Positions 467-14,100 of a stretch of DNA of 36,251 nucleotides are shown piece by piece. The notes beneath the pieces are model-generated. The model ran no database searches, was not told where the DNA came from, and saw only the letters and a program-made list of their open reading frames with translations. Every line of letters begins with the position of its first letter. Within the stretch, counting starts at the first letter, position 1. Source of the stretch: Dictyobacter arantiisoli (GTDB lineage: Bacteria; Chloroflexota; Ktedonobacteria; Ktedonobacterales; Ktedonobacteraceae). A program made the translations under genes and the position numbers. The stretch covers positions 1 through 36,251 of the forward strand of contig NZ_BIXY01000073.1 of assembly GCF_008326305.1 (NCBI RefSeq). Direction: 5' to 3'.

Positions 467-1999
467 ATGAGTAATTCAGATACTGATAATACAAGCAATC
501 ATAACGAGGATAATACAATACCTTTTCAGTCTGCTTCACAGCCGAAGCAAGAGCCTGATAATGAGCATCGCTATCATGAGTATATGGAACCGGGTAGCTA
601 TCAAGCCACACCAGAAGCAGGCTATCAAGCTATTCCGCCATCATCCTATCCTCCCCAGGCCAATGATCTTTATCATGGGAGAGTGGTGGATCAGGATGCT
701 CCTCGTCCGCAGTATGGGAGCGTTCCACGGGAGGATACAGGCAACGCCAACCAGACGTATAATCATGGCTATGGTTATAACAATACACCGGGGACGCATG
801 GATCTTATGGGACATATCCCGGTAGCTTTGGGAATGTGCCACCCACGGGTTCCAATCCTCCTGTGAAACGCGGCGGCTTGAGGGCTGGTGCGCTTCTCCT
901 GCTAACGCTGGTAATTGTATTAGTCTTTGGGGTTGGCATTTTTGCTGGCTGGCAGTTTGGACAGAACAATACAGCCGGTGTGCTTCCCGCAGCCCAGACG
1001 AGTACATTACAGGCGGGTTCAAACTCGAAAGTGACGATCCCTTCTTTATCTGCCAACAACGTCGAGACGGTGCGTGAGGCTGTGGTAGCCAAGACGCGAC
1101 CGGGTGTGGTGTTGATCACCGTCAATTCACAAAATGGTACCGCACTTGGTTCCGGGGTGATCATAGATAATCGCGGCTATATTGTGACAAATAACCACGT
1201 CGTTTCTGGATCTCAAACAGTTAGCACTGTCACCCTGGCCGATGGGACAACAGTCAAGAATGCTCCCGTGGTCGGCATTGATCCAGCTGATGATCTGGCA
1301 TTAATCAAGATTAATCCCACTGCGAACATGACGGTGGTGCCTGTGGGTAATTCTTCGGACTTGCGCGTAGGACAGGATGTACTGGCGATTGGTAATCCTC
1401 TGGGCAATACTCAGACCGTGACCAATGGTATTGTCAGTGCTCTGGGACGAAATGTCAGCGAACAAAATGGTGCAACTATTCCTGGTGCAATCCAGACCGA
1501 CGCGCCGATTAATCCTGGTAACAGTGGTGGCGCGCTGGTAGACCTGCAAGGGAATCTGGTTGGTGTGCCAACCCTGACTGCGGTTGATCCAGAGTTCAAT
1601 TCCCCGGCGAATGGTGTTGGATTCGCAATCCCATCTAATCGTGTGAAGTTTATTGCCCAGCAGTTGATCGCAACGGGCAAGGTTGAGCATACCGGTCGTG
1701 CCGCCATTGGCATCAGTCCGACCAGTGTAGATGCAGCTATGCAGGCGCAGGCTGGTCTCGCTGTTGATCATGGTGTACTGATTACCCAACTGGTCGCTGG
1801 TGGTGCTGCCGAGAAGGCAGGTATCAAGGCGGGTGATGTGATTGTTCAGATTGACAATGCCAATATTGACGCCATTTCAAATCTGCAGGATGCGTTGATC
1901 TCGAAGAATCCAGGCGATAAAGTCACAGTGAAAATATATCGTGGCAATCAGCAAATGACGTTCTCCGTCACGCTGGGTGAGCTACAGTCGGGTAGCTAA
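467..1999 (+). CDS. HtrA/DegP-type membrane-anchored serine protease with PDZ domain
   Basis: Trypsin-like (S1C) serine protease that degrades or processes misfolded proteins outside the membrane. Residues 1-138 are a hydrophilic, Tyr/Gln/Pro/Gly/His-rich low-complexity segment that would lie in the cytoplasm. One membrane segment follows at about 141-165 (AGALLLLTLVIVLVFGV), then the protease domain and a single PDZ domain from about 405 to 505. The catalytic triad is complete: His244 in TNNHVV, Asp276 in DPADDLALI and Ser353 in NPGNSGGAL. A strong Shine-Dalgarno (AGGAGGG) precedes the ATG by six bases. It is followed by a strong terminator. The gene converges on a leftward membrane protein/anti-sigma/sigma block, so a shared stress role is possible but only inferred. 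The length (510 aa) is longer than a typical DegP-like protein because of the N-terminal tail. Confidence 0.93.
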   Translation: MSNSDTDNTSNHNEDNTIPFQSASQPKQEPDNEHRYHEYMEPGSYQATPEAGYQAIPPSSYPPQANDLYHGRVVDQDAPRPQYGSVPREDTGNANQTYNHGYGYNNTPGTHGSYGTYPGSFGNVPPTGSNPPVKRGGLRAGALLLLTLVIVLVFGVGIFAGWQFGQNNTAGVLPAAQTSTLQAGSNSKVTIPSLSANNVETVREAVVAKTRPGVVLITVNSQNGTALGSGVIIDNRGYIVTNNHVVSGSQTVSTVTLADGTTVKNAPVVGIDPADDLALIKINPTANMTVVPVGNSSDLRVGQDVLAIGNPLGNTQTVTNGIVSALGRNVSEQNGATIPGAIQTDAPINPGNSGGALVDLQGNLVGVPTLTAVDPEFNSPANGVGFAIPSNRVKFIAQQLIATGKVEHTGRAAIGISPTSVDAAMQAQAGLAVDHGVLITQLVAGGAAEKAGIKAGDVIVQIDNANIDAISNLQDALISKNPGDKVTVKIYRGNQQMTFSVTLGELQSGS

Positions 2000-2096
2000 G
2001 CGAGCTATAGGCGGTAAAAAACACCATTCCCGAGCAATGTAGACAACCTTCGGCCTGTTGGGTACTGCGTGTACCGCGCGTTTCCTCCTTACTGAA

Positions 2097-2140
2097 GGGC
2101 GACTCTTTGGGCGACTCCTCAAAGAGTCGCCCTTTTTTTT
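2097..2140 (+). terminator. Rho-independent terminator after the HtrA gene
   Basis: A perfect 13-bp stem (GGGCGACTCTTTG with CAAAGAGTCGCCC) and a 10-base loop are followed by eight T. It lies about 100 bases past the protease stop codon and also separates it from the convergent membrane-protein gene. Confidence 0.9.
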
Positions 2141-2179
2141 GTCACTTTTCTTCTGCTTCTGCTTCTGCTTGAGAACAAG

Positions 2180-2950
2180 TTAGACTTTGAGCGTATCAGG
2201 GATCGTAGCTTGAGGTGTGAGAGTCGTGGGTGTAGGGCGTGAGCGGTGGCTGGCGAGGAGCACGCCGATAAACAGGATGATCCAGCCGAGTGCCATAATC
2301 AGCCAGAAGACGTTGTCGGCCCCCAGGAAGCGTGCCAGCGTGCCAGCGACACCATTTAAAATAGCCCCGGCGAAGATACATAGATTAGCCCACACAATCC
2401 GACTGGTTTTTATGCCCCCCATACTGGCCTGTTTGCGTAAGAGTTTCCAGCCGGAAAAGAGTGCCACTCCGGCTACTGCAACCAATCCAAGTGTATTGAG
2501 GACAATCGTCATAATCAGCCAGGGGCCCAATTGGAGTGTACCTGTACCAGGTGTCCCGGCAATCTGGCTGAGCCTGGGCATATCAATCGTAGCATCCAGC
2601 ACAAAAATGGCGGAAATAAAACTGAGTAGTAGCAAGAAGCCAGCGCAAATCCGTGTGAAGCGTGGCCTGCTCACCAGGCCAATACTGCCCAGACCGAGCC
2701 AGGACGGCATGATCGTACCGCCAAATGCATAGTAGAGACGAAAGAGATAGGTGCCTGGCAGGGTAGTTGGCCCAACGATGAGCATACCCATATAGGCCAG
2801 TGTGGCGATAAAGGCCATGCATAGCGCGACCGACCAGTAGAGTTGATAGCTACGTCGACGACTGATATATTGTCGCAAGATGACAAAGGCGAATATTCCC
2901 GTGACCACTACATTGATCAAGGGAGGTAGCAGCAATAACGTTGTGTTCAC
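2180..2950 (-). CDS. polytopic membrane protein, function unknown
   Basis: A 256-aa protein with about seven hydrophobic segments: near residues 4-24, 38-58, 75-95, 100-122, 145-168, 190-210 and 213-235. The ends are polar (C-terminus rich in Thr/Pro). I do not recognise the family; the evenly spaced helices recall seven-helix sensor modules such as the 7TM part of some bacterial histidine kinases, but no signalling domain is attached. The likely start is GTG at 2948-2950 (MNTTLLLLPP). It is transcribed toward the HtrA gene and separated from the upstream anti-sigma gene by about 235 bases that include a hairpin at 3135-3164. Confidence 0.75.
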   Translation of the reverse strand: MNTTLLLLPPLINVVVTGIFAFVILRQYISRRRSYQLYWSVALCMAFIATLAYMGMLIVGPTTLPGTYLFRLYYAFGGTIMPSWLGLGSIGLVSRPRFTRICAGFLLLLSFISAIFVLDATIDMPRLSQIAGTPGTGTLQLGPWLIMTIVLNTLGLVAVAGVALFSGWKLLRKQASMGGIKTSRIVWANLCIFAGAILNGVAGTLARFLGADNVFWLIMALGWIILFIGVLLASHRSRPTPTTLTPQATIPDTLKV

Positions 2951-3134
2951 AATACGTCTCGTTTCCTGAATAGGAGATTTTGTCTATGATATTGAATATA
3001 TAGATGCCCGCTGGAACTGGATGCATCTTCCATTTCAGCATATCCAATTAAGTCCTTATTCAGACTATAACATAAACTGCTTTTTTCGACAGCATGAATA
3101 TTTTACCGGGATTCAGCCTTGTCCGCGTAACAAG

Positions 3135-3164
3135 GAAGGCATCCTTACCATAAAGGATGCCTTC
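3135..3164 (-). terminator. hairpin, probable terminator of the sigma/anti-sigma operon
   Basis: A 12-bp perfect stem (GAAGGCATCCTT / AAGGATGCCTTC) with a six-base loop lies about 20 bases beyond the stop of the anti-sigma gene. T-runs are weak on both sides, so termination efficiency is uncertain. Confidence 0.6.
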
Positions 3165-3185
3165 TTTGTCTGGTACTATTGAGCA

Positions 3186-4010
3186 TTATTTCCTGGAGGA
3201 TGTTTGCGATCGATAGCGCTGTTTGAAGAGTGTAAAGCCCATACTGCCGAAGATGGCAAGTAAAATACCCAGACCAAGTCGCCCGGCAGGGGTATTCAGA
3301 TCAAAAAACAGGATGTTAGGAAGGATCTGTGGCGAACTTGAGATCTCATGGTTGTCATATGGAGCGGACTGCACTGACGATACCGCTGTTGGGGTTGGGG
3401 TTGTCCTGCCTACTGCCGACGCATTGGGATGCTTTTTGATACTGGTACCGGCCGTTTCTGGCGTGAGCGGTTTTTCGTTTTTTCCCATATGTGCATTAGC
3501 GGGTGCGTTGGCCGCCGCACCTGATGATGTAGATGTGGCTGCGCTCATACCCATATGGCCGAGTAATCCTGACAGTGCCAGACAGATGCCGATCATGGCA
3601 GCCAGAGCACTGATGATACGCATGGTGCTACGCAGGGATGAAGGCAAGGTAGCTGTCCTGACTGGACGATTTCGCTGGCTTTGACGTGTCTGTTCCAGGG
3701 AAATTGGTGGCACGCTCAGCACATCCTCATCCTCAAAACCATTTGATAGCTCGAACTCTTCTTCTGCATCCATTTGCGTGAGCGAGAAATCGGAGGGAAG
3801 CGCAAACGAGCGTGGCAGGACTGGTTGCGGCAGGGTGTGCAGAAGATTGACCGTCTGGCGCAAATCGGCATAGACTTGTTGGCACTGCTCACAGCAATCC
3901 AGATGATACTGGATGGCATCCAGCGGTTCATCGGTTGGGATTTCGTATAGTTTGTTGTCGAGCAATGTTGAGAGTTGTTCTGTTGTGAGATGCCGATTAA
4001 TTTGAGACAC
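3186..4010 (-). CDS. zinc-finger anti-sigma factor (membrane)
   Basis: Predicted to bind and inhibit the ECF sigma factor encoded just upstream. The N-terminus has the anti-sigma zinc-finger signature HxxxCxxC at His36, Cys40 and Cys43 (YHLDCCEQCQQV). An acidic cytoplasmic linker follows, then a membrane segment at about 131-153, an Ala/Ser/Thr/Pro-rich extracytoplasmic region of about 90 residues, and a second membrane segment at about 245-262 ending in a basic tail. The second helix is unusual for the class and would return the C-terminus to the cytoplasm. The start is GTG at 4010, seven bases after GGAG. It lies 18 bases downstream of the sigma gene, so the two are surely co-transcribed. 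Confidence 0.88.
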   Translation of the reverse strand: MSQINRHLTTEQLSTLLDNKLYEIPTDEPLDAIQYHLDCCEQCQQVYADLRQTVNLLHTLPQPVLPRSFALPSDFSLTQMDAEEEFELSNGFEDEDVLSVPPISLEQTRQSQRNRPVRTATLPSSLRSTMRIISALAAMIGICLALSGLLGHMGMSAATSTSSGAAANAPANAHMGKNEKPLTPETAGTSIKKHPNASAVGRTTPTPTAVSSVQSAPYDNHEISSSPQILPNILFFDLNTPAGRLGLGILLAIFGSMGFTLFKQRYRSQTSSRK

Positions 4011-4028
4011 ACGTACACTCCATATGTA

Positions 4029-4679
4029 TTAACGATCAGAGACATCAGTGCTATTGGTGTGACGATAATTGCGCGGTAAAAGTTCCCTGTGTGTTTGTAA
4101 ATAGGTTCGCAGGCGGGCCCGCCCGCGTGAAATACGCGAGCGTATCGTACCGAGATTGGTATGCATCACCTGGGCTGCCTCTTCATATGATAAGCCTTGA
4201 ATGTCGCACAGTACCAGCGCGGTGCGTTGCTCCAGTGGGAGCAGCACCAGCCCTTGTTGAATAACTGCTTGCAGTTCCTTTAGCAAGATATTTTCTTCTG
4301 GATTGCTTTCCGGTCCAATGATAGCAAGCATTTCCAATTGACTGGCAGCATGAAGCTCATCCTCGTTCGCGAGTGCATCGAGCGAGGTGGTAGGGTGGCG
4401 CTGGACCCGTCGCCAATGGTCACACGCCAGGTTTGAGCCAATACGCAGCAGCCAGGCGCGAAACGAAGCACTTCCACGATAGGTCCGAATCGCTCTGAAG
4501 GCAGAGATAAAAGCTTCCTGTGTCACATCTGCTGCTGTATCAGAATCACCGAGCAAGCGCAAGACGGTACTATACATAACATGTTGGTATTGCTCAATGA
4601 GTAGATTGAATGCTTCGACATCTCCATGCTGGCTACGGGCGATGAGCTTTTCCTCTTCGTCTGGAGCAAGCTTATTCAT
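4029..4679 (-). CDS. ECF RNA polymerase sigma factor (sigma-70 family)
   Basis: A 216-aa sigma factor with only regions 2 and 4. Region 2 is seen at about 25-95 (DVTQEAFISAFRAIRTYRG, then FRAWLLRIGSNLACDHWRR) and region 4 at about 145-200 (LLPLEQRTALVLCDIQGLSY, then the helix-turn-helix EEAAQVMHTNLGTIRSRISR). It would direct RNA polymerase to a stress or envelope regulon when released from the anti-sigma encoded immediately downstream. GAGAGGCG precedes the ATG. The zinc-ribbon kinase gene lies about 110 bases upstream on the same strand and could be co-regulated. The inducing signal cannot be read from the sequence. Confidence 0.93.
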   Translation of the reverse strand: MNKLAPDEEEKLIARSQHGDVEAFNLLIEQYQHVMYSTVLRLLGDSDTAADVTQEAFISAFRAIRTYRGSASFRAWLLRIGSNLACDHWRRVQRHPTTSLDALANEDELHAASQLEMLAIIGPESNPEENILLKELQAVIQQGLVLLPLEQRTALVLCDIQGLSYEEAAQVMHTNLGTIRSRISRGRARLRTYLQTHRELLPRNYRHTNSTDVSDR

Positions 4680-4788: not shown

Positions 4789-6699
4789 TTAGAGTAAGCG
4801 TTGGACATCCTGTTTCATTTCCGCGTAGCTGCGATAGCGCACATAGATATCTTCGCTTAAGGCGCGGGTCAAAATGCGCTCAAGTGCAGGCGATACCGCT
4901 GAATTGAGAAGCCGTATGGGTGGATAGGTAGGATAGTGCGGTGGCGCGATATTGCTGAGCGTATGATGCATACTGGCGGCCAGGGCATAGATGGCGGTGC
5001 GTTGATCGTATATCTTATCCTGAATTGGCAGATAGGGTGAGATGGCGAGTTTGCGCGTCGTCCGACGCCCACGTTTTTGTCCGGTGTGCTCGCTGGCTGG
5101 TGGCGGAGGGGGAACTTGAAAGCCAGTGAGAAAGACACGACCACGCTTCTGCTCGATCAAAATATCGGCGGGCGAGATTGCGTAATGGCGCAGTGGTGGC
5201 TGCTGACGCTCCAGTGTGATCAAAATATTGAGTAGATTGTTGAGGTAACCAACGACTTCACGTTCTGGGAGTGGATGCAGGAGTTTCGCCATACGTTCTT
5301 CCAGACTCTCGCCGTCAATGTAGTTGAGTACCGCGTAATAATAACGTCCCTCGACGAAACGTTCGCGTACCTGTGGCAGTAATGGATGATGCAGTTGGAC
5401 CTGGGCCTCGGTCGCCTGATCGTAATAAGCGATATCGCGGGCACGCTGAGATAAGGGTTGATCGGTACATTCCCAGCGTTTTAAGACAACCTGAGTGCCA
5501 TCGTGGGTATTCTGGGCAACGGCGGTCACGATACCCGTTTCTTCGCTCTGCTTAAGGATACGCTGGATACTATAGCGTCCCTGCCTCACAGTGATCCCAA
5601 TCAATGGGCTGCTCTGGGGAATGTCGGGTGAGAGGGTCAGCCGTCCGCAGTTGGAGCAGCAGCGTTGTCCAAAGCGAATTGGTATCTCGCAATATTGGCA
5701 ATAGCGATTGTCGTGTTCCGCGCCACAGAATGAGCAGCGTCGTGCTCCAGTACGATTTTGCTGTCCACAGGTCTGACACAGATAGCGCTGCTGTGCAATC
5801 TTTACCGCCTGGCTATATTCTTCCGCGAACTCCATGATACCGGGATAGCGTTGGCGATAGTCCTTGGAGAGCGCACGTCTGAGTACGGCGGAGACCTCGA
5901 CCGGTACACGGGCATTCCAGCGCTGTGGCTCGGGTGGAGGCTCTTTCATATGCGCGTTCCACATATCTTCTAGTTTAGGATAGACAAAGGGAGGGCGTCC
6001 ACTCAAAAGCTCATAGCAACAGATCGCGAGGGCATACTGATCCGAGTCGCGTCTGGGAGCGGCGCGCCACTGTTCCGCTGGCATATAAGCCGCTGTGCCA
6101 GTAATCTCACCGAGGGAGGCATGTGTTTGCATACCGAGATAGTAGGCGGTACCGAAATCCGCCAGCAGCACCTGTCCATTGTGACCAATGAGCAGATTGC
6201 CAGGTTTCACATCCTGATGAACCAGGCCATTGTCATGAACATATTTTAAGGCACTGGCGGTCTGTTCGATATAGGGGATCAGTTCTTCCGCGTATGCCAG
6301 ACGGCGTGTGCCATTGGGCTGTCGAAATAAATGATTGATCGTACGCGGAGCATATTCCATCACAAGATACGGCTGTTGCGTGCCAGTAATTTGTCCAAAG
6401 TTATAGATCGGCAAAATATTGGGATGGCGCATGGTAGCGATGCGACGTGCTTCTTGAAAGAAACTGGCCTGCGCTTTGGCACTGGACTGATCCATCCGCA
6501 AGACCTTGAGCGCCAGAATACGACTGAGCGGCTGTGGTTCGCGTATTTTATAGACATAACCATAGCTACCAGCCCCGATAAAATCGATCACCTCATACTC
6601 GCCAATATGCGCTCCCTGCACCAGAAAATCGCACTGCCGGCAACTTATAGCACCCTGAACATTATCATGCGTCGCACGCGGATTGAGACAGCGGGCCAA
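4789..6699 (-). CDS. Ser/Thr protein kinase with central zinc ribbons and C-terminal pseudokinase
   Basis: A 636-aa protein. An N-terminal partial zinc finger (Cys4, Cys20, Cys23) is followed by a Hanks-type kinase at about 34-295: glycine loop IGAGSYGYVY, Lys65 (ALKVL), HQDVKPGN at 161-168 (Gln replaces the Arg of HRD) and DFG at 181-183. Then come two zinc ribbons: Cys308/311/322/325, and Cys334/337 with Cys347 or 348 and Cys351. A second kinase-fold domain spans about 366-636. It keeps the lysine (Lys407, VVLKRW), but HYAISPADI replaces the catalytic loop and LTGFQ replaces DFG, so it should be inactive. No membrane segment is seen, so the protein is predicted cytoplasmic. The start is TTG at 6699, preceded by AGGAGAG. 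The substrate is unknown; the neighbouring sigma operon is one candidate. Confidence 0.9.
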   Translation of the reverse strand: MARCLNPRATHDNVQGAISCRQCDFLVQGAHIGEYEVIDFIGAGSYGYVYKIREPQPLSRILALKVLRMDQSSAKAQASFFQEARRIATMRHPNILPIYNFGQITGTQQPYLVMEYAPRTINHLFRQPNGTRRLAYAEELIPYIEQTASALKYVHDNGLVHQDVKPGNLLIGHNGQVLLADFGTAYYLGMQTHASLGEITGTAAYMPAEQWRAAPRRDSDQYALAICCYELLSGRPPFVYPKLEDMWNAHMKEPPPEPQRWNARVPVEVSAVLRRALSKDYRQRYPGIMEFAEEYSQAVKIAQQRYLCQTCGQQNRTGARRCSFCGAEHDNRYCQYCEIPIRFGQRCCSNCGRLTLSPDIPQSSPLIGITVRQGRYSIQRILKQSEETGIVTAVAQNTHDGTQVVLKRWECTDQPLSQRARDIAYYDQATEAQVQLHHPLLPQVRERFVEGRYYYAVLNYIDGESLEERMAKLLHPLPEREVVGYLNNLLNILITLERQQPPLRHYAISPADILIEQKRGRVFLTGFQVPPPPPASEHTGQKRGRRTTRKLAISPYLPIQDKIYDQRTAIYALAASMHHTLSNIAPPHYPTYPPIRLLNSAVSPALERILTRALSEDIYVRYRSYAEMKQDVQRLL

Positions 6700-8113: not shown

Positions 8114-9838
8114 CTAGTTTCCGAGCGCTTCGAGAAGCATATCTCCCTCTTCAGGCGTCAGGCGTCCTGTCGCGATCATGCGCAGGATAGCTTCGCGTTC
8201 CTGCTCAATTTGAACTGGTGCGGAATTTGTTTTTTCTACGGTTGTTGCTGTCTCATTCTGGGCTGACAATGGTACTTCGGGTTGGACGCGCTCCAGGTTG
8301 GCCTGTGAATAAACATCCTGAGCCGTATCTGCGGCTGGGTATGCAGGAGTCTGGGGCGGTGTGGGCGGCATTGGTGGTGTGGGCGGTGTTGGTGTATAGG
8401 TTGGATGTGTAATGTGCAGGTTGCTGAATGCCTGCTCAATCGCTTCGCGGGCCCCCTGAATGCCTTCGGTAGTTGCACGCTGCGCCTCTTCAATGATGTG
8501 ATTGATACGCTCGGAGTCCATGCGCCATTCACGCTCGTTCAGACGAATATTGATGCCTGCCAGCTTTTCCCGGGCTTTCTGTAGTTTCTCCTGGTCTTCC
8601 TGCCGTCGTCTGGCATCCCTGTTTCGATGGGAGTGGCGTGCATCGAGATCCAGGTTATCTAGATCATCCAGGTCATTCAGATTATAGGGATGGTCTAAAT
8701 GTTCGAAATCACCAGAGGCGGAGGCAAAATCCGCACCCAGATCACGTCCCAGATTTCCCATTTCACGGCCAAAGTCGGCAATATCGTGGGCGAAATCTGA
8801 CCACCAGTTGCCACCTGTGCTATTGCTACTGCGTGGATCTTGTTGACCTCCCAGGTGTAGATCTTTGCCGACGAGGAGATCTAATTTTGCCGCGCCTTCG
8901 CCATAGACGAGGGTGACGCGGTTTCCTTTCTGATTGGTGACGATGGCACGACCACTGATCGCTCCACTTACCACTGCCTGGATTGTCAGATTAGCGGCAG
9001 GATCAAGTATGATACTGGCATCGTGACCGACGCGTAGATGCGAGACACTGGCAGTGGTAAAATCTGCCTGGAGCTGTAGATCGTGGCCGATATTACCGGC
9101 ATCAATCGAGCCATGGATAGCCTGCAGCGAGGCATCATTTCCTACGAAATGAACCTTGAGGGCACCTCCGAGCTCTCTCAGGACCAGATCTTTGCCCACC
9201 ATTCTGATCTCAACATCGCCCTGAATATCGCGAATACTTGCATCTTTGCCCACTTTTTCAGCTTTTAACTGGCTGACATCCTGGACCGTAAGATCTTTGC
9301 CAACGTTACTCAGGGTGACGCGGCTTTCACGCTGTCCTTTGATCGAGCAATCGCCACCAATATTTGTGCATTGCAGGACATTGAAGTCCTGAGCGTGAAA
9401 ATCTTTTCCCACACTTCCGATGGTTGCCTGCTCGCTATTCTGGAGCGTGAGATCCTTCTCTACCCGTTGTAAATCGAGGCGCACGACTTCACTGATTGAG
9501 GCATCTCCAGCAATTTTGCCTGCTGTCTGTAGCGTGGTGACATTTTTAACGGAGAGATCTCCATTGATACGCTCTACGCTTACGGTGCCCTGGATATGCT
9601 CGACATGAACATCATCCGCCTCTGTGATGCTGATATTGATGGCATAAGGAACCATCAGTGAAATGTCATCATCACCATCCTCAATCAACAATGTTTCGTC
9701 TCGTTGTTCTACTGTTTCGGGTGCGTGATCGTGACTGATTTGAATGATTGGTTGATCCCAACCCCGTACTACGACTGCGCCACTGATATCATTGATAAGA
9801 ATGCGGCTTATTCCCCTGGCATCAAATGTTTGTGTCAT
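8114..9838 (-). CDS. repeat-rich DUF4097/bactofilin-like protein with C-terminal SHOCT-like hairpin
   Basis: A 574-aa protein with no signal peptide or membrane segment. Residues about 1-330 are short beta-strand repeats of roughly 20 residues carrying the motif VGKD or VGHD (for example SVGKDFHAQD, KVGKDASIRD, MVGKDLVLRE, RVGHDASIIL), as expected of a right-handed beta-helix like DUF4097 or bactofilin folds. Then follow an Asp/Asn/Leu-rich linker near 390-410, a charged coiled coil of about 410-490, a Pro/Thr-rich linker (PTYTPTPPTPPMPP), and a C-terminal helical hairpin (REAILRMIATGRLTPEEGDM) of the SHOCT-like type seen in YvlB/LiaX proteins. It is the last gene of the operon, with AAAGGAG before the ATG. 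The function is unknown; a cytoplasmic or membrane-surface scaffold is a reasonable guess. Confidence 0.75.
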   Translation of the reverse strand: MTQTFDARGISRILINDISGAVVVRGWDQPIIQISHDHAPETVEQRDETLLIEDGDDDISLMVPYAINISITEADDVHVEHIQGTVSVERINGDLSVKNVTTLQTAGKIAGDASISEVVRLDLQRVEKDLTLQNSEQATIGSVGKDFHAQDFNVLQCTNIGGDCSIKGQRESRVTLSNVGKDLTVQDVSQLKAEKVGKDASIRDIQGDVEIRMVGKDLVLRELGGALKVHFVGNDASLQAIHGSIDAGNIGHDLQLQADFTTASVSHLRVGHDASIILDPAANLTIQAVVSGAISGRAIVTNQKGNRVTLVYGEGAAKLDLLVGKDLHLGGQQDPRSSNSTGGNWWSDFAHDIADFGREMGNLGRDLGADFASASGDFEHLDHPYNLNDLDDLDNLDLDARHSHRNRDARRRQEDQEKLQKAREKLAGINIRLNEREWRMDSERINHIIEEAQRATTEGIQGAREAIEQAFSNLHITHPTYTPTPPTPPMPPTPPQTPAYPAADTAQDVYSQANLERVQPEVPLSAQNETATTVEKTNSAPVQIEQEREAILRMIATGRLTPEEGDMLLEALGN

Positions 9839-9873
9839 TTTTTTTACTCCTTTTAATCATTAGTGTATAGGAA

Positions 9874-10248
9874 TTATTCAACAAAAACTTCCAGGCGTTC
9901 ACCCTGTTCCATATCCTGTATATCCAGCAGACGACCGGTGGCGCCCTCCTCGATTGAGCGTAAGATGTCAGACATCGCCCCTGCATCGAGTTGCGGTAAG
10001 AGATAGCCACCCAGGCGGGCGCTGAGCTTGAGCAATTGAACCGGCATACTGGCAATGATGTGTTTCTTCTGACGGCCATCATTGAGGCTGGTGGCGCGGA
10101 TGCGTAAGGTCCGTTCGCGTAGCGGTTCCACTATTTTGATCGGTTCCACATCCAGGGCATCGAAGAGTTGAGTTGCCTCGAGCGCGCTGATCCGTCTGGC
10201 CTCAACCAGCGTCAGGATACGGTCGCGTTCATCTTTTGTTAACGCCAC
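9874..10248 (-). CDS. small protein with N-terminal SHOCT-like hairpin
   Basis: A 124-aa soluble protein. Its N-terminus (TKDERDRILTLVEARRISAL, then EATQLFDAL) matches the helix-turn-helix hairpin 'E-R-x-x-I-L-x-M-V-x-x-G-x-I-(T/S)-x-E-E-A-x-x-L-(L/F)-x-A-L' found in YvlB/LiaX and related envelope-stress proteins. The rest is a mixed alpha/beta segment that I do not recognise. The start is GTG at 10248, only four bases after the stop of the DUF2089 gene, with AAAGG as ribosome-binding site, so translation is probably coupled. The same hairpin ends the large repeat protein encoded next, suggesting the two interact or were built from a shared module. Confidence 0.78.
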   Translation of the reverse strand: MALTKDERDRILTLVEARRISALEATQLFDALDVEPIKIVEPLRERTLRIRATSLNDGRQKKHIIASMPVQLLKLSARLGGYLLPQLDAGAMSDILRSIEEGATGRLLDIQDMEQGERLEVFVE

Positions 10249-10252
10249 GGGG

Positions 10253-10612
10253 TTAACCTTTCAGTTGTTTCATGGCATCTTCCACACTAATTTCTTTAGC
10301 CGCCAGTTTATCCAGTATTGCCCGCCGATCCACACGTCCATCGTACTCAGGTGTACCACCCAGGGCCGTCACAATATCATCAAGGCGGCTGCGGGCCGTA
10401 TTGTAGGCGATATTGCGTTCCGCCGCTAATTTCTGGATATTGCCACGATATTTCACAAGCTGTTCTACAAAATCGAGCTGTTCGCGGGTAAGACGCCCGA
10501 TCCAGCCCAGACTAAATTCACCCTCGATAGTAATGCCGCTGGCAGGACATTCCAGACGGGTAACGATCAATTCTTCACCGCTGACGGGATCGCGTGTAAT
10601 CAATGGATACAT
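10253..10612 (-). CDS. DUF2089 family protein
   Basis: A 119-aa protein matching the DUF2089 pattern: a short N-terminal part that is a zinc ribbon in many members (here LECPASGITIEGEF keeps only one Cys, so zinc binding is unlikely), then a helical region (LTREQLDFVEQLVKYRGNIQ, then KLAAERNIAYNTARSRLDDI) resembling a sigma-like helix-turn-helix that could bind DNA. In many bacteria DUF2089 genes sit beside SHOCT/YvlB-type genes, as here. A role as operon regulator is inferred. The ribosome-binding site GGAGA precedes the ATG. The C-terminus also carries a short acidic helical hairpin (LAAKEISVEDAMKQL) like that of its neighbours. Confidence 0.85.
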   Translation of the reverse strand: MYPLITRDPVSGEELIVTRLECPASGITIEGEFSLGWIGRLTREQLDFVEQLVKYRGNIQKLAAERNIAYNTARSRLDDIVTALGGTPEYDGRVDRRAILDKLAAKEISVEDAMKQLKG

Positions 10613-11110: not shown

Positions 11111-11375
11111 GCTATTTTCAGAAGCAAAGGATGTTATCGGATGGCAACAAAGAGCGGTTTGAGGGAATAGTGATGGTGTATTTGAGGAGAATTATGAAGT
11201 TGAGTGGAAATTGGTAGGATTTGTTGTTGACGGTCAGGGGGGAGATGCGTCTTAAGACAATGATACCTCTTTTTATTAAGAATGTTTTGATGATTGGTAA
11301 GAGATAGCGTGTTGATGCGAATTTGTGTCTATGAATCATCTCTGGGTATGATGGAGTATGAAGGGAGTCCGGCTC

Positions 11376-11972
11376 ATGTATCCGCATCTTCCTGATGATA
11401 TTTCTGTGGAGTGGTTGGTGCGCGAGGCGCGTGCTGGAAACCAGCAGGCGGCTGATCGCTTGTTTTATTTGTTTTATCGTAAGATCTGCCACTTTTTTCT
11501 GAGAGATCTCCACGTGAGCGTTGAGATGGCTGAAGAGTTGGTTCAGGATACATTTGAAAAGGCCTGGCGCAAGTTACCTACGTTACAGAATTGCCTGGTC
11601 TTTGAAAGTTGGCTGTATACCATTGCCAGAAATGTGGGTTTTGATCACGTACGGAAGTTGAAACGTCGGAAAGATCCGACCCCACTTGATCCTGAATTCG
11701 ATCTGGCCGATAGCTCCCCCCCGGTGGAAAGTCTTGTGCTGGCAGAGATGCATATTCGCGAGATGTGGAATGCAATGCCTCCCAGGCAACGCGAATGTTT
11801 ATATTTGTTCTATATGGAAAATCTTACAATGCTAGAGATTTCGGCGCGTTTACAGTTGGGGGCTGATACGGTCAAAGTCTATATCAGTAAGGCTCGTATG
11901 ACATTGCGAGACGGGCTGTATGCTTCAGAGGAGGACGTGAACGATGTCAAGTCAAAACGATGCAGAGCATGA
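11376..11972 (+). CDS. ECF RNA polymerase sigma factor
   Basis: A sigma-70 family factor with regions 2 (about 25-95: EMAEELVQDTFEKAWRKLPT, then FESWLYTIARNVGFDHVRKL) and 4 (about 125-180: MPPRQRECLYLFYMENLTML, then EISARLQLGADTVKVYISKA). The start at 11376 (MYPHLPDD) is preferred over the upstream ATG at 11358 because AAGGGAG lies between them at proper distance. The 3' end overlaps the next gene by 29 bases, so the two proteins are translationally coupled. By context it is controlled by the unusual ligand-binding anti-sigma factor encoded there. Its target promoters are unknown. Confidence 0.92.
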   Translation: MYPHLPDDISVEWLVREARAGNQQAADRLFYLFYRKICHFFLRDLHVSVEMAEELVQDTFEKAWRKLPTLQNCLVFESWLYTIARNVGFDHVRKLKRRKDPTPLDPEFDLADSSPPVESLVLAEMHIREMWNAMPPRQRECLYLFYMENLTMLEISARLQLGADTVKVYISKARMTLRDGLYASEEDVNDVKSKRCRA

Positions 11973-14100
11973 TCCAATGGAGGATGTGTTGATGCACGTT
12001 CTGTGCGAGCGTTGGGCTGAAAAGCTTGAGGTGACACGTGTAGAGCACTTCTCTCCGGATGAGCGCGAGGCATTTGAATTTCATATGCAGTCTTGCGAGC
12101 GTTGCCAGGATATCGTGAAGCAATATCGTGTGGTGGATAGCTATTTTTATAGTTTTATGCTCTCGGAACATATGCCGGTGGCGGCTAATGCACCATCTTT
12201 GCCCGCTGGTCTGCGCTCTCGGAGACGTATGCATCAGCTATGGGAGCGTGTGAGCGCTAGTCTGCGCTGGCAAGGTCCTCCACTGCGCCTTGTTTCCGCA
12301 TGGTGGTTGCAGGGGACTGGTTTAGTGTTGCTTGTATTGCTATTGCTGGGTGGGATACTGTTTGAGACAGAATTGGTAGATAGTCGCCTGGTTTCGGTTG
12401 GTATTGCCCTGGGTGCTCTGGCAATAACGTTACTTGTGCTGGGTTCGCGTAAGCAGCAGGAACCGGTGCGCAATGCAACCCAGCAGTGCTGGCAACAAAC
12501 ATCTGAAAAACAGAATGTATTGGCCTGGCGTGAATTGTCCCTACCTTTACCGAGCGTCCAGATAGATGTGCCAGAGCCCAGAGCGTTGCGTTCCCAGCGC
12601 CGTCGCTCACGCGCTACAACGCGACGCAATACATGGATCTGGAGTGTTGCGCTCTGCCTGATGCTGGCGATTGGTGTGATTGCTTTGGGCTGGCTCACAC
12701 CTCTGTTCCAGCCTCATACTGTGAGCGGTGGAACAGATCCAACTGGTGCTCCAGTGGGTATTAGCGTGGATGGTAGTAAGGTATTTGATACCAGTCGGCA
12801 GGATGGGGATCTGAAACGCGAGGCGGCCAGTAAGATGTTGGCCGGGGATGTGAATGGAGCACAGGAACTGTGGCGACAGGCTCTGACGCTGGATAGTAAT
12901 GATGCTGAACTTTTGATTTATCGCGAGAATCTGGTGGTGAAAGATTCAGCCAGCTCCTACTTTACGCTGGTAGTAGGTACAATCTTTTCACAGCAACATA
13001 TTGGTGGCGCTCGCGATGTCCTGCAAGGGGCATATGTCGCGCAGCAAGAATATAATGCCCGGGCCATGAAGTCAGGTGGTAAACTGCTACGTCTCATGAT
13101 CGCGGCTGCCGATGTGGATTCGTTGAGTCCAACAACGACGGCCACTCAAATAGTTCAGGCCGCACAGAAAGATCCAACCATTGTCGGCGTGATGGGCTGG
13201 TCAACCAGCCGTAGTGCGTTATCCGCATTGCAAGTGTTGAGCGCGGCACACATTCCAATGGTCTCAGCCACGGCTTCCAGTGATAGCTTGAGTGGTAAAT
13301 CGCCCTACTTTTTCCGGGTCGCCTCGACTGATACCCAACAGGCCACGCTGGCAGCTCAATATGCCAGGCAGGTACTGCATGCCAGGAGCGTTGCCCTCTT
13401 TACCGATCCCGACGATACCTATAGCAATAGTCTGGCACAGGCATTTATGCAGCACTATCAAGACAGTACACATAAGCTTGTGCATGCACCTTATATCTAT
13501 ACTATTGGGGTGCCCAGCACCGTCGAGAGTCAGATGGGTGATGTCTTAAGCCATCATCCTGATTTGATCTACTTCGCCGGTTATGTCAATGAGGCCAGCG
13601 TCGTACTCAAGCATTTGCCTGCCTGTGCGGCTGATAGTCCGCAATGTCTGCTCGTGCTCGGTGGCGATGCACTTTATGTGCAAGGAGATTATTCACTCGA
13701 CGCCTTTAAAAATTATGGTCGCTTTCGCTTTACTGCCTTTGCCTCACCGGAAGAGGCGAAGCAACAGCATCCACAATTTTTTGCCGACTACGCCAAAGAC
13801 TTTGATCCATTGGGACAATATCGCGCCGGTTTCTATGGCTATAACGCCACCGATGCCGACATCATACTTGGCTATGATGCCACCAATGTCCTGATCCAGG
13901 CCAGCGAGCGCTTACAGGGACAGGATGCGCAGGCGTTGAATTCCCAGAATCTGGCACGGATCTTACATACCATTCAGGTGAACGGCGTGAGTGGTAAGAT
14001 TAGCTTTGACAAGAATGGCAACCTGATGCGTAAAAATATTATCATCTTGCGCGGCAACGAAAATGGTCGCACCACCATCGATCATTCACTTGATGGATAA
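11944..14100 (+). CDS. anti-sigma factor fused to an extracytoplasmic ABC-type solute-binding (type I periplasmic binding) domain
   Basis: A 718-aa fusion. Residues about 15-75 are an anti-sigma zinc finger with HxxxCxxC at His47, Cys51 and Cys54 (FEFHMQSCERCQDI). Three membrane segments follow (about 120-140, 148-168, 231-255), which puts the N-terminus inside and the long C-terminus outside. Residues about 285-325 look like one tetratricopeptide-type helix pair (GDVNGAQELWRQALTLDSND). From about 330 to 715 the sequence is a branched-chain amino-acid-binding-protein-like fold: TIVGVMGWSTSRSALSALQV, HIPMVSATASSDSLS, PYFFRVASTDTQQATLAAQY and GFYGYNATDADIILGYDATN are typical strands and hinge regions. 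It overlaps the sigma gene by 29 bases. The natural reading is a one-protein receptor that senses an outside ligand and releases the sigma factor. The ligand is unknown, and no permease or ATPase genes are nearby, so it is not a transporter component. Confidence 0.9.
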   Translation: MSSQNDAEHDPMEDVLMHVLCERWAEKLEVTRVEHFSPDEREAFEFHMQSCERCQDIVKQYRVVDSYFYSFMLSEHMPVAANAPSLPAGLRSRRRMHQLWERVSASLRWQGPPLRLVSAWWLQGTGLVLLVLLLLGGILFETELVDSRLVSVGIALGALAITLLVLGSRKQQEPVRNATQQCWQQTSEKQNVLAWRELSLPLPSVQIDVPEPRALRSQRRRSRATTRRNTWIWSVALCLMLAIGVIALGWLTPLFQPHTVSGGTDPTGAPVGISVDGSKVFDTSRQDGDLKREAASKMLAGDVNGAQELWRQALTLDSNDAELLIYRENLVVKDSASSYFTLVVGTIFSQQHIGGARDVLQGAYVAQQEYNARAMKSGGKLLRLMIAAADVDSLSPTTTATQIVQAAQKDPTIVGVMGWSTSRSALSALQVLSAAHIPMVSATASSDSLSGKSPYFFRVASTDTQQATLAAQYARQVLHARSVALFTDPDDTYSNSLAQAFMQHYQDSTHKLVHAPYIYTIGVPSTVESQMGDVLSHHPDLIYFAGYVNEASVVLKHLPACAADSPQCLLVLGGDALYVQGDYSLDAFKNYGRFRFTAFASPEEAKQQHPQFFADYAKDFDPLGQYRAGFYGYNATDADIILGYDATNVLIQASERLQGQDAQALNSQNLARILHTIQVNGVSGKISFDKNGNLMRKNIIILRGNENGRTTIDHSLDG

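Follow-up and report, generated by a model that had tools for sequence, protein, structure and literature searches.

To our knowledge, the input signals of most ECF sigma factors are unknown. Anti-sigma factors of class I (zinc), which partner ECF sigma factors and include RsrA, ChrR, RsiW, and RslA (classification in PMC7406223), have in common an Hx3Cx2C motif with an upstream cysteine, a helical bundle followed by a fourth helix, and an adjoining sigma gene. The protein analyzed here shares the motif and the adjoining sigma gene, is modelled with matching helices at modest confidence, and, like most class I anti-sigma factors, is membrane-anchored, but it differs from them in carrying a complete type I solute-binding outer domain and three membrane helices. 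In its fold and at the main positions of the pocket (S, S/T, Y, D), this outer domain agrees with the LivJ/LivK-type proteins (Peripla_BP_6; PDB 3td9, 4gnr, and 4n0q); unlike these, it belongs to a membrane-anchored regulatory protein and has no cognate permease or ATPase genes.

Solute-binding proteins acting as dedicated sensors are already known: in actinobacteria, the amino-acid-binding GlnH signals to PknG through GlnX (PMC6069109). The likeness to our protein lies in an amino acid solute-binding protein that signals across the membrane, whereas GlnH, GlnX, and PknG are separate proteins and act on a kinase. GlnH is also a different kind of solute-binding protein. Similarly, a nutrient-binding domain outside is combined with sigma control inside in Clostridium thermocellum RsgI (PMC12203970) and in SCO4117/ECF52 (PMC8999054), but these carry carbohydrate-binding modules with no periplasmic-binding fold, and RsgI works by proteolysis on SigI-type sigma factors. 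Finally, zinc-ribbon Ser/Thr kinase-TM-TPR-solute-binding proteins of the Ktedonobacteria (L002, L003, and others among L062-L084) have a homologous ectodomain, about 40-48% identical, but with a kinase output in place of the anti-sigma domain and without the cysteine pair C561/C568 described below. The preliminary description had regarded the arrangement as undescribed. We likewise found no description of an anti-sigma factor fused to a periplasmic-binding protein in the open-access texts that the search covered, but the arrangement is less surprising than it was made out to be, as sensor solute-binding proteins are known, the module also sits on kinases of the same genome, and related anti-sigma domains bear many other outer domains.

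The window, that is, the whole 36,251-nucleotide stretch of DNA analyzed, belongs to a 7.2 Mb, Dictyobacter-like genome, that of a soil-dwelling member of the Dictyobacter group. Domains, topology, fold, conservation, sigma pairing, and origin were all established computationally. The locus comprises:

11227-11251 (+): putative autoregulatory ECF-type promoter, TTGA-N16-GCGTC, a motif that recurs upstream of the sigma gene
11376-11972 (+): ECF sigma factor, 198 aa (Pfam Sigma70_r2/r4_2, NCBIfam sigma70-ECF)
11944-14100 (+): anti-sigma/solute-binding receptor fusion, 718 aa, one ORF with six full-length orthologues adjoining an ECF sigma gene

The sigma ORF matched Sigma70_r2 (2.9e-11) and Sigma70_r4_2 (3.5e-11); with regions 2 and 4 only and an anti-sigma gene adjoining, it has the hallmarks of an ECF sigma factor. 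The fusion ORF is intact and overlaps the sigma gene by 29 bases (11944-11972), and reading the sequence revealed plausible ribosome-binding sites, GGGAG 5′ of 11376 and AGGAGG 5′ of 11944. The gene pair had been described in these terms from the letters alone, and the ORFs, the profile matches, and the orthologues all bear this out.

Six full-length orthologues were identified besides the window protein, in Dictyobacter kobayashii, D. aurantiacus, D. vulcani, ‘Ktedonobacteria bacterium brp13’, Tengunoibacter tsumagoiensis, and a Ktedonobacteraceae MAG. The survey of Chloroflexota genomes proposed earlier thus placed the fusion in 7/47 Ktedonobacteria genomes (its own included) from three genera, with an ECF sigma gene directly upstream each time. 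No further full-length fusion was found in the 400-genome Chloroflexota sample (about 47 Ktedonobacteria and about 350 others), a survey that could miss strongly diverged or independent fusions. The zinc ligands and the mapped pocket residues are kept in all six orthologues. In the ectodomain tree, the anti-sigma fusions fall into a single clade (support 100/98), and the fusion is, judging by this tree, of single origin. The sigma factors paired with the seven fusions also cluster in their own tree, with modest support (79/70).

The N-terminal part of the protein contains:

11944-12264 (+): class I zinc anti-sigma domain, residues 1-107, with zf-HC2/antisigma matches and invariant C21, H47, C51, and C54
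12004-12006 (+): C21, predicted zinc ligand, invariant in 7/7 orthologues and always 26 residues N-terminal to H47
12082-12105 (+): HxxxCxxC motif with H47, C51, and C54, invariant in 7/7

The zf-HC2 profile scored 17.1 bits on this domain, under the curated Pfam cut-off of 22.2 bits, which is a library threshold and no biological criterion, and the NCBIfam antisigma profile matched with E=4.1e-5. All seven orthologues (the window protein being counted here and below) matched zf-HC2 weakly, and related sigma-linked anti-sigma proteins also scored near the cut-off (21.8 bits for L142 and 19.5 for L141). When a profile of the seven orthologues was compared with the PDB, chain B of 3hug, which we take to be the RslA anti-sigma factor, came first (E 0.036) and the anti-sigma factor DdvA third (E 0.35), both being weak matches. 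The zinc anti-sigma assignment, weak on the window match alone, is upheld by the zf-HC2 matches of the seven orthologues, the invariant C/H ligands, and the PDB profile matches. The ligand pattern C21-x25-H47-x3-C51-x2-C54 is kept in 7/7. His47, Cys51, and Cys54 had been named in the preliminary description, which was right on these three residues and overlooked the fourth predicted ligand, C21. In the AlphaFold2 model (block pLDDT about 40-88), residues 1-107 are modelled with helices 11-30, 38-50, 52-73, and 89-107, which would correspond to a three-helix bundle plus a fourth helix. An ECF sigma gene adjoins the fusion gene in 7/7 loci, in line with the co-encoding of class I anti-sigma factors with their partners. 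Residues 1-107 are predicted to bind and inhibit the co-encoded sigma factor.

The anti-sigma domain is followed by the membrane region and a helical linker:

12322-12378 (+): TM helix 1, residues 127-145, from hydropathy, kept in the seven orthologues (modelled helix 112-139)
12388-12444 (+): TM helix 2, residues 149-167, from hydropathy (modelled helix 147-188)
12634-12690 (+): TM helix 3, residues 231-249, preceded by a basic loop on the cytoplasmic side, from hydropathy and charge
12802-12948 (+): TPR-like helical linker, residues 287-335, with a profile match to consensus TPR proteins (modelled helices 288-299, 303-316, and 321-335)

Hydropathy found the three membrane helices, as originally proposed, in 7/7 orthologues, with a basic stretch ahead of the third (7 K/R among 15 residues in the window protein). 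By the positive-inside rule, this stretch ahead of TM3 predicts for all seven proteins that the anti-sigma domain faces the cytoplasm and the solute-binding domain the exterior. The model is of low confidence at residues 183-223 and 251-263. The TPR-like pair of the preliminary description was recovered with a qualification: the element is degenerate and under the cut-off on its own, while a 26-sequence profile matched consensus TPR proteins at about 1e-8.

The outer part of the protein comprises:

12955-14088 (+): type I (LivJ/LivK-like) solute-binding ectodomain, residues 338-715 (Peripla_BP_6/ANF_receptor; AlphaFold2 model, Foldseek matches to 3td9, 4n0q, and 4gnr)
13207-13209 (+): S422, putative ligand carboxylate contact, kept in 25/26 module members and aligned to LivJ 4gnr
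13276-13278 (+): S445 (S or T), putative ligand contact, S/T in 26/26
13420-13422 (+): Y493, putative pocket residue, invariant in 26/26
13624-13647 (+): C561 and C568, cysteine pair, predicted ectodomain disulphide, present as a pair only in the 7/7 anti-sigma orthologues
13666-13668 (+): D575 of a GGD motif, putative amino-group contact, invariant in 26/26

Residues 359-708 matched Peripla_BP_6 at 1.4e-18 (68.1 bits against a cut-off of 31.7), which places them in this family; ANF_receptor also matched the C-terminal part (4.1e-18), and the nearest PDB sequences were the LivK/LivJ-type 3td9 and 4gnr. The AlphaFold2 model was built from an alignment of 26 module members and superseded a single-sequence run with a mean pLDDT of 42.5; its pLDDT is mostly >90 for residues 270 to 560. 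Foldseek searches with this model gave LivK/LivJ-type proteins as the best PDB matches, with target TM-scores of 0.83-0.89 (0.86-0.89 for 3td9, 4n0q, and 4gnr), indicating a two-lobed type I fold that also matches mGluR ligand-binding domains. The outer branched-chain amino-acid-binding-like domain of the preliminary description was thus confirmed by profile, structural model, and predicted topology, and the fold predicted for residues 330-718 withstood the structural comparison.

The pocket positions S422, S/T445, Y493, and D575 were mapped by alignment to LivJ-type proteins, with presumed residue roles. The corresponding positions of leucine-binding protein are presumably Ser79, Thr102, Tyr150, and Glu226, and in mGluR an acidic residue touches the ligand amino group. 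Near-invariance of the pocket, taken with these presumed roles, predicts an amino-acid-like ligand. The C561/C568 columns lack the cysteine pair in the 19 aligned relatives that have other N-termini. In agreement with the reported absence of transporter genes nearby, no LIV-type genes were seen, and no ABC genes were found among the window genes tested. ABC ATPases are encoded downstream in three relatives; by inspection, these look non-LIV (LolD/MacB-like). A transporter role was rejected, since no LIV permease or ATPase was recognized beside any orthologue; the domain has the type I fold, but we do not class it as a transporter component.

Neither half of the fusion is confined to this protein, a context that the preliminary description had overlooked. 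The genome of the window carries the TM-TPR-solute-binding module on the two zinc-ribbon Ser/Thr kinase proteins L002 and L003, on one further zinc-ribbon/kinase-like protein, and on two proteins without a recognized N-terminal domain. In relatives, the module is found on kinases, on a TIR domain (L095), on TPR repeats (L089), or with no other domain. Among related zinc anti-sigma domains adjoining ECF sigma factors (C..WA.KLA ... H...C..C), in turn, the outer domains vary: WD40 (L140, L143, and L144), PQQ (L142), sialidase/Vps10-like (L146), or other (L145). The fusion of one module to kinases and TIR is what an interchangeable input domain would show, and the other outer domains borne by related anti-sigma domains are what one would expect if the anti-sigma domain were an interchangeable output domain. 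From these architectures, the window protein appears to join two modular sensor/output systems and to be one of a set of combinations; this favors a role as a sensor and makes the fusion less surprising. The set also offers a natural experiment, since a single bacterial class has connected the same sensor family to anti-sigma, kinase, and TIR outputs.

We propose, with a probability of roughly 0.6, that the protein is a one-polypeptide transmembrane receptor for an ECF sigma factor, in which the hold on sigma depends on a ligand bound outside. On the cytoplasmic side of the membrane, the N-terminal zinc anti-sigma domain would hold its co-encoded sigma factor, while the outer C-terminal Venus-flytrap domain would bind a small amino-acid-like ligand. 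Closure of the flytrap would act on the anti-sigma domain by way of the TPR-like linker and all three membrane helices, altering whether sigma is held or freed, and freed sigma would transcribe its own operon and probably other genes too. Sigma binding and inhibition, the class of ligand, the direction of the response, and a conformational rather than proteolytic release are what we infer here. Ligand-controlled release of sigma explains the observations best, and an external nutrient might then plausibly turn on genes directly. The direct ligand control of an ECF regulon suggested in the preliminary description is likewise plausible. The more specific version, in which an extracellular amino acid gates the sigma factor conformationally through the three membrane helices of one polypeptide, without proteolysis, is tentative and stands somewhat below even odds. 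If true, it would make the protein a counterpart, in bacterial gene control, of a metabotropic (Venus-flytrap) receptor, built from modules that kinases of the same cell carry too. The sensor fold suits routine thermal-shift ligand screening, making the input of this orphan ECF system directly testable.

The same receptor logic could operate with sigma freed by regulated proteolysis, a well-known route for membrane-bound anti-sigma factors such as RsiV (PMC6066255) and RsgI (PMC12203970). Ligand binding or unfolding outside would bare a cleavage site, for which the low-confidence stretches noted above are candidates in the model, and intramembrane and cytoplasmic proteases would then destroy the anti-sigma domain. 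Three membrane helices are, however, unusual in a classic site-2 protease substrate, and we hold this route to be unlikely. Somewhat more doubtful is that the solute-binding fold has ceased to sense a free small molecule and instead monitors a partner (a protein, a peptide, or the cell wall) or serves only to position the protein. Neither LIV transporter genes nor obvious metabolic partner genes lie beside the fusion in the window or in relatives, and the outer domains of related anti-sigma factors are propellers, a type that often binds proteins or glycans; yet the mapped pocket residues are almost invariant over 26 members, which would be unexpected of decayed or purely structural domains.

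The main input might instead be redox, with the receptor fold secondary: oxidation of C21/C51/C54 would free zinc and sigma, or the C561-C568 pair would sense oxidation. Some zinc anti-sigma domains do sense oxidants (PMC8999054), and both C21 and the outer pair are kept in 7/7 anti-sigma proteins. Against this, membrane anti-sigma factors commonly contain zinc motifs, in many cases with a structural role (PMC7406223), and the short-spaced outer pair is more simply read as a structural disulphide; we consider a redox input quite improbable. The chance that the fusion arose through an error of sequencing or assembly or through a frameshift is negligible. Its occurrence in just one draft genome would have hinted at such an error, and nothing was found in favor of it; the six independent full-length orthologues, 41-64% identical and some on finished chromosomes, refute it.

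Returning to the genes that a freed sigma factor would serve, a motif TTKA-N16-RCGTC was found upstream of the sigma gene in 6/7 loci, while 2000 mononucleotide shuffles gave ≤2/7. This excess is suggestive only, because the motif was picked after viewing the sequences and several of the seven loci are closely related; it suggests a plausible ECF promoter and autoregulation of sigma. In a scan of five genomes, an extended motif was not clearly more frequent than its reversed control, and no regulon beyond possible autoregulation emerged. Neighboring genes of the seven loci are conserved within the genus only and gave no metabolic hint.

Upstream of the sigma/anti-sigma pair, a divergent operon (8114-10612, -) encodes DUF2089 (zinc ribbon plus HTH), a SHOCT-like protein, and a 574-aa DUF4097-like repeat protein that itself ends in a SHOCT-like domain. 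This operon is kept in Dictyobacter, with the long gene also present in brp13, and is not kept in the Tengunoibacter or MAG loci.

Several relatives deserve mention in their own right. L141 of Dictyobacter kobayashii (1715-4066) joins, in a single 783-aa chain, regions 2 and 4 of an ECF sigma factor to a zinc anti-sigma domain and a PQQ beta-propeller, and is by its predicted domains a self-contained sigma/anti-sigma/sensor protein. Among the WD40-bearing ECF anti-sigma factors, L140 lies in the genome of the window and L143 and L144 in Ktedonosporobacter and a third genus; the latter two have, by inspection, an NB-ARC-like ATPase fragment ahead of the sigma gene. Ktedonosporobacter rubrisoli L095 (5029-7419), in which TIR is joined to the same solute-binding ectodomain, may be a membrane receptor that signals through TIR. 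In Thermogemmatispora, the kinase-like domains on the module (L063, L067, and L069) have no recognizable HRD motif and are possibly pseudokinase receptors. Finally, the window holds a second ECF sigma gene (4029-4679, -) adjoining a gene for an HxxxCxxC anti-sigma-like protein without a Pfam match (3186-4010), and a Ser/Thr kinase with an internal zinc ribbon is encoded beside this second pair (4789-6699).
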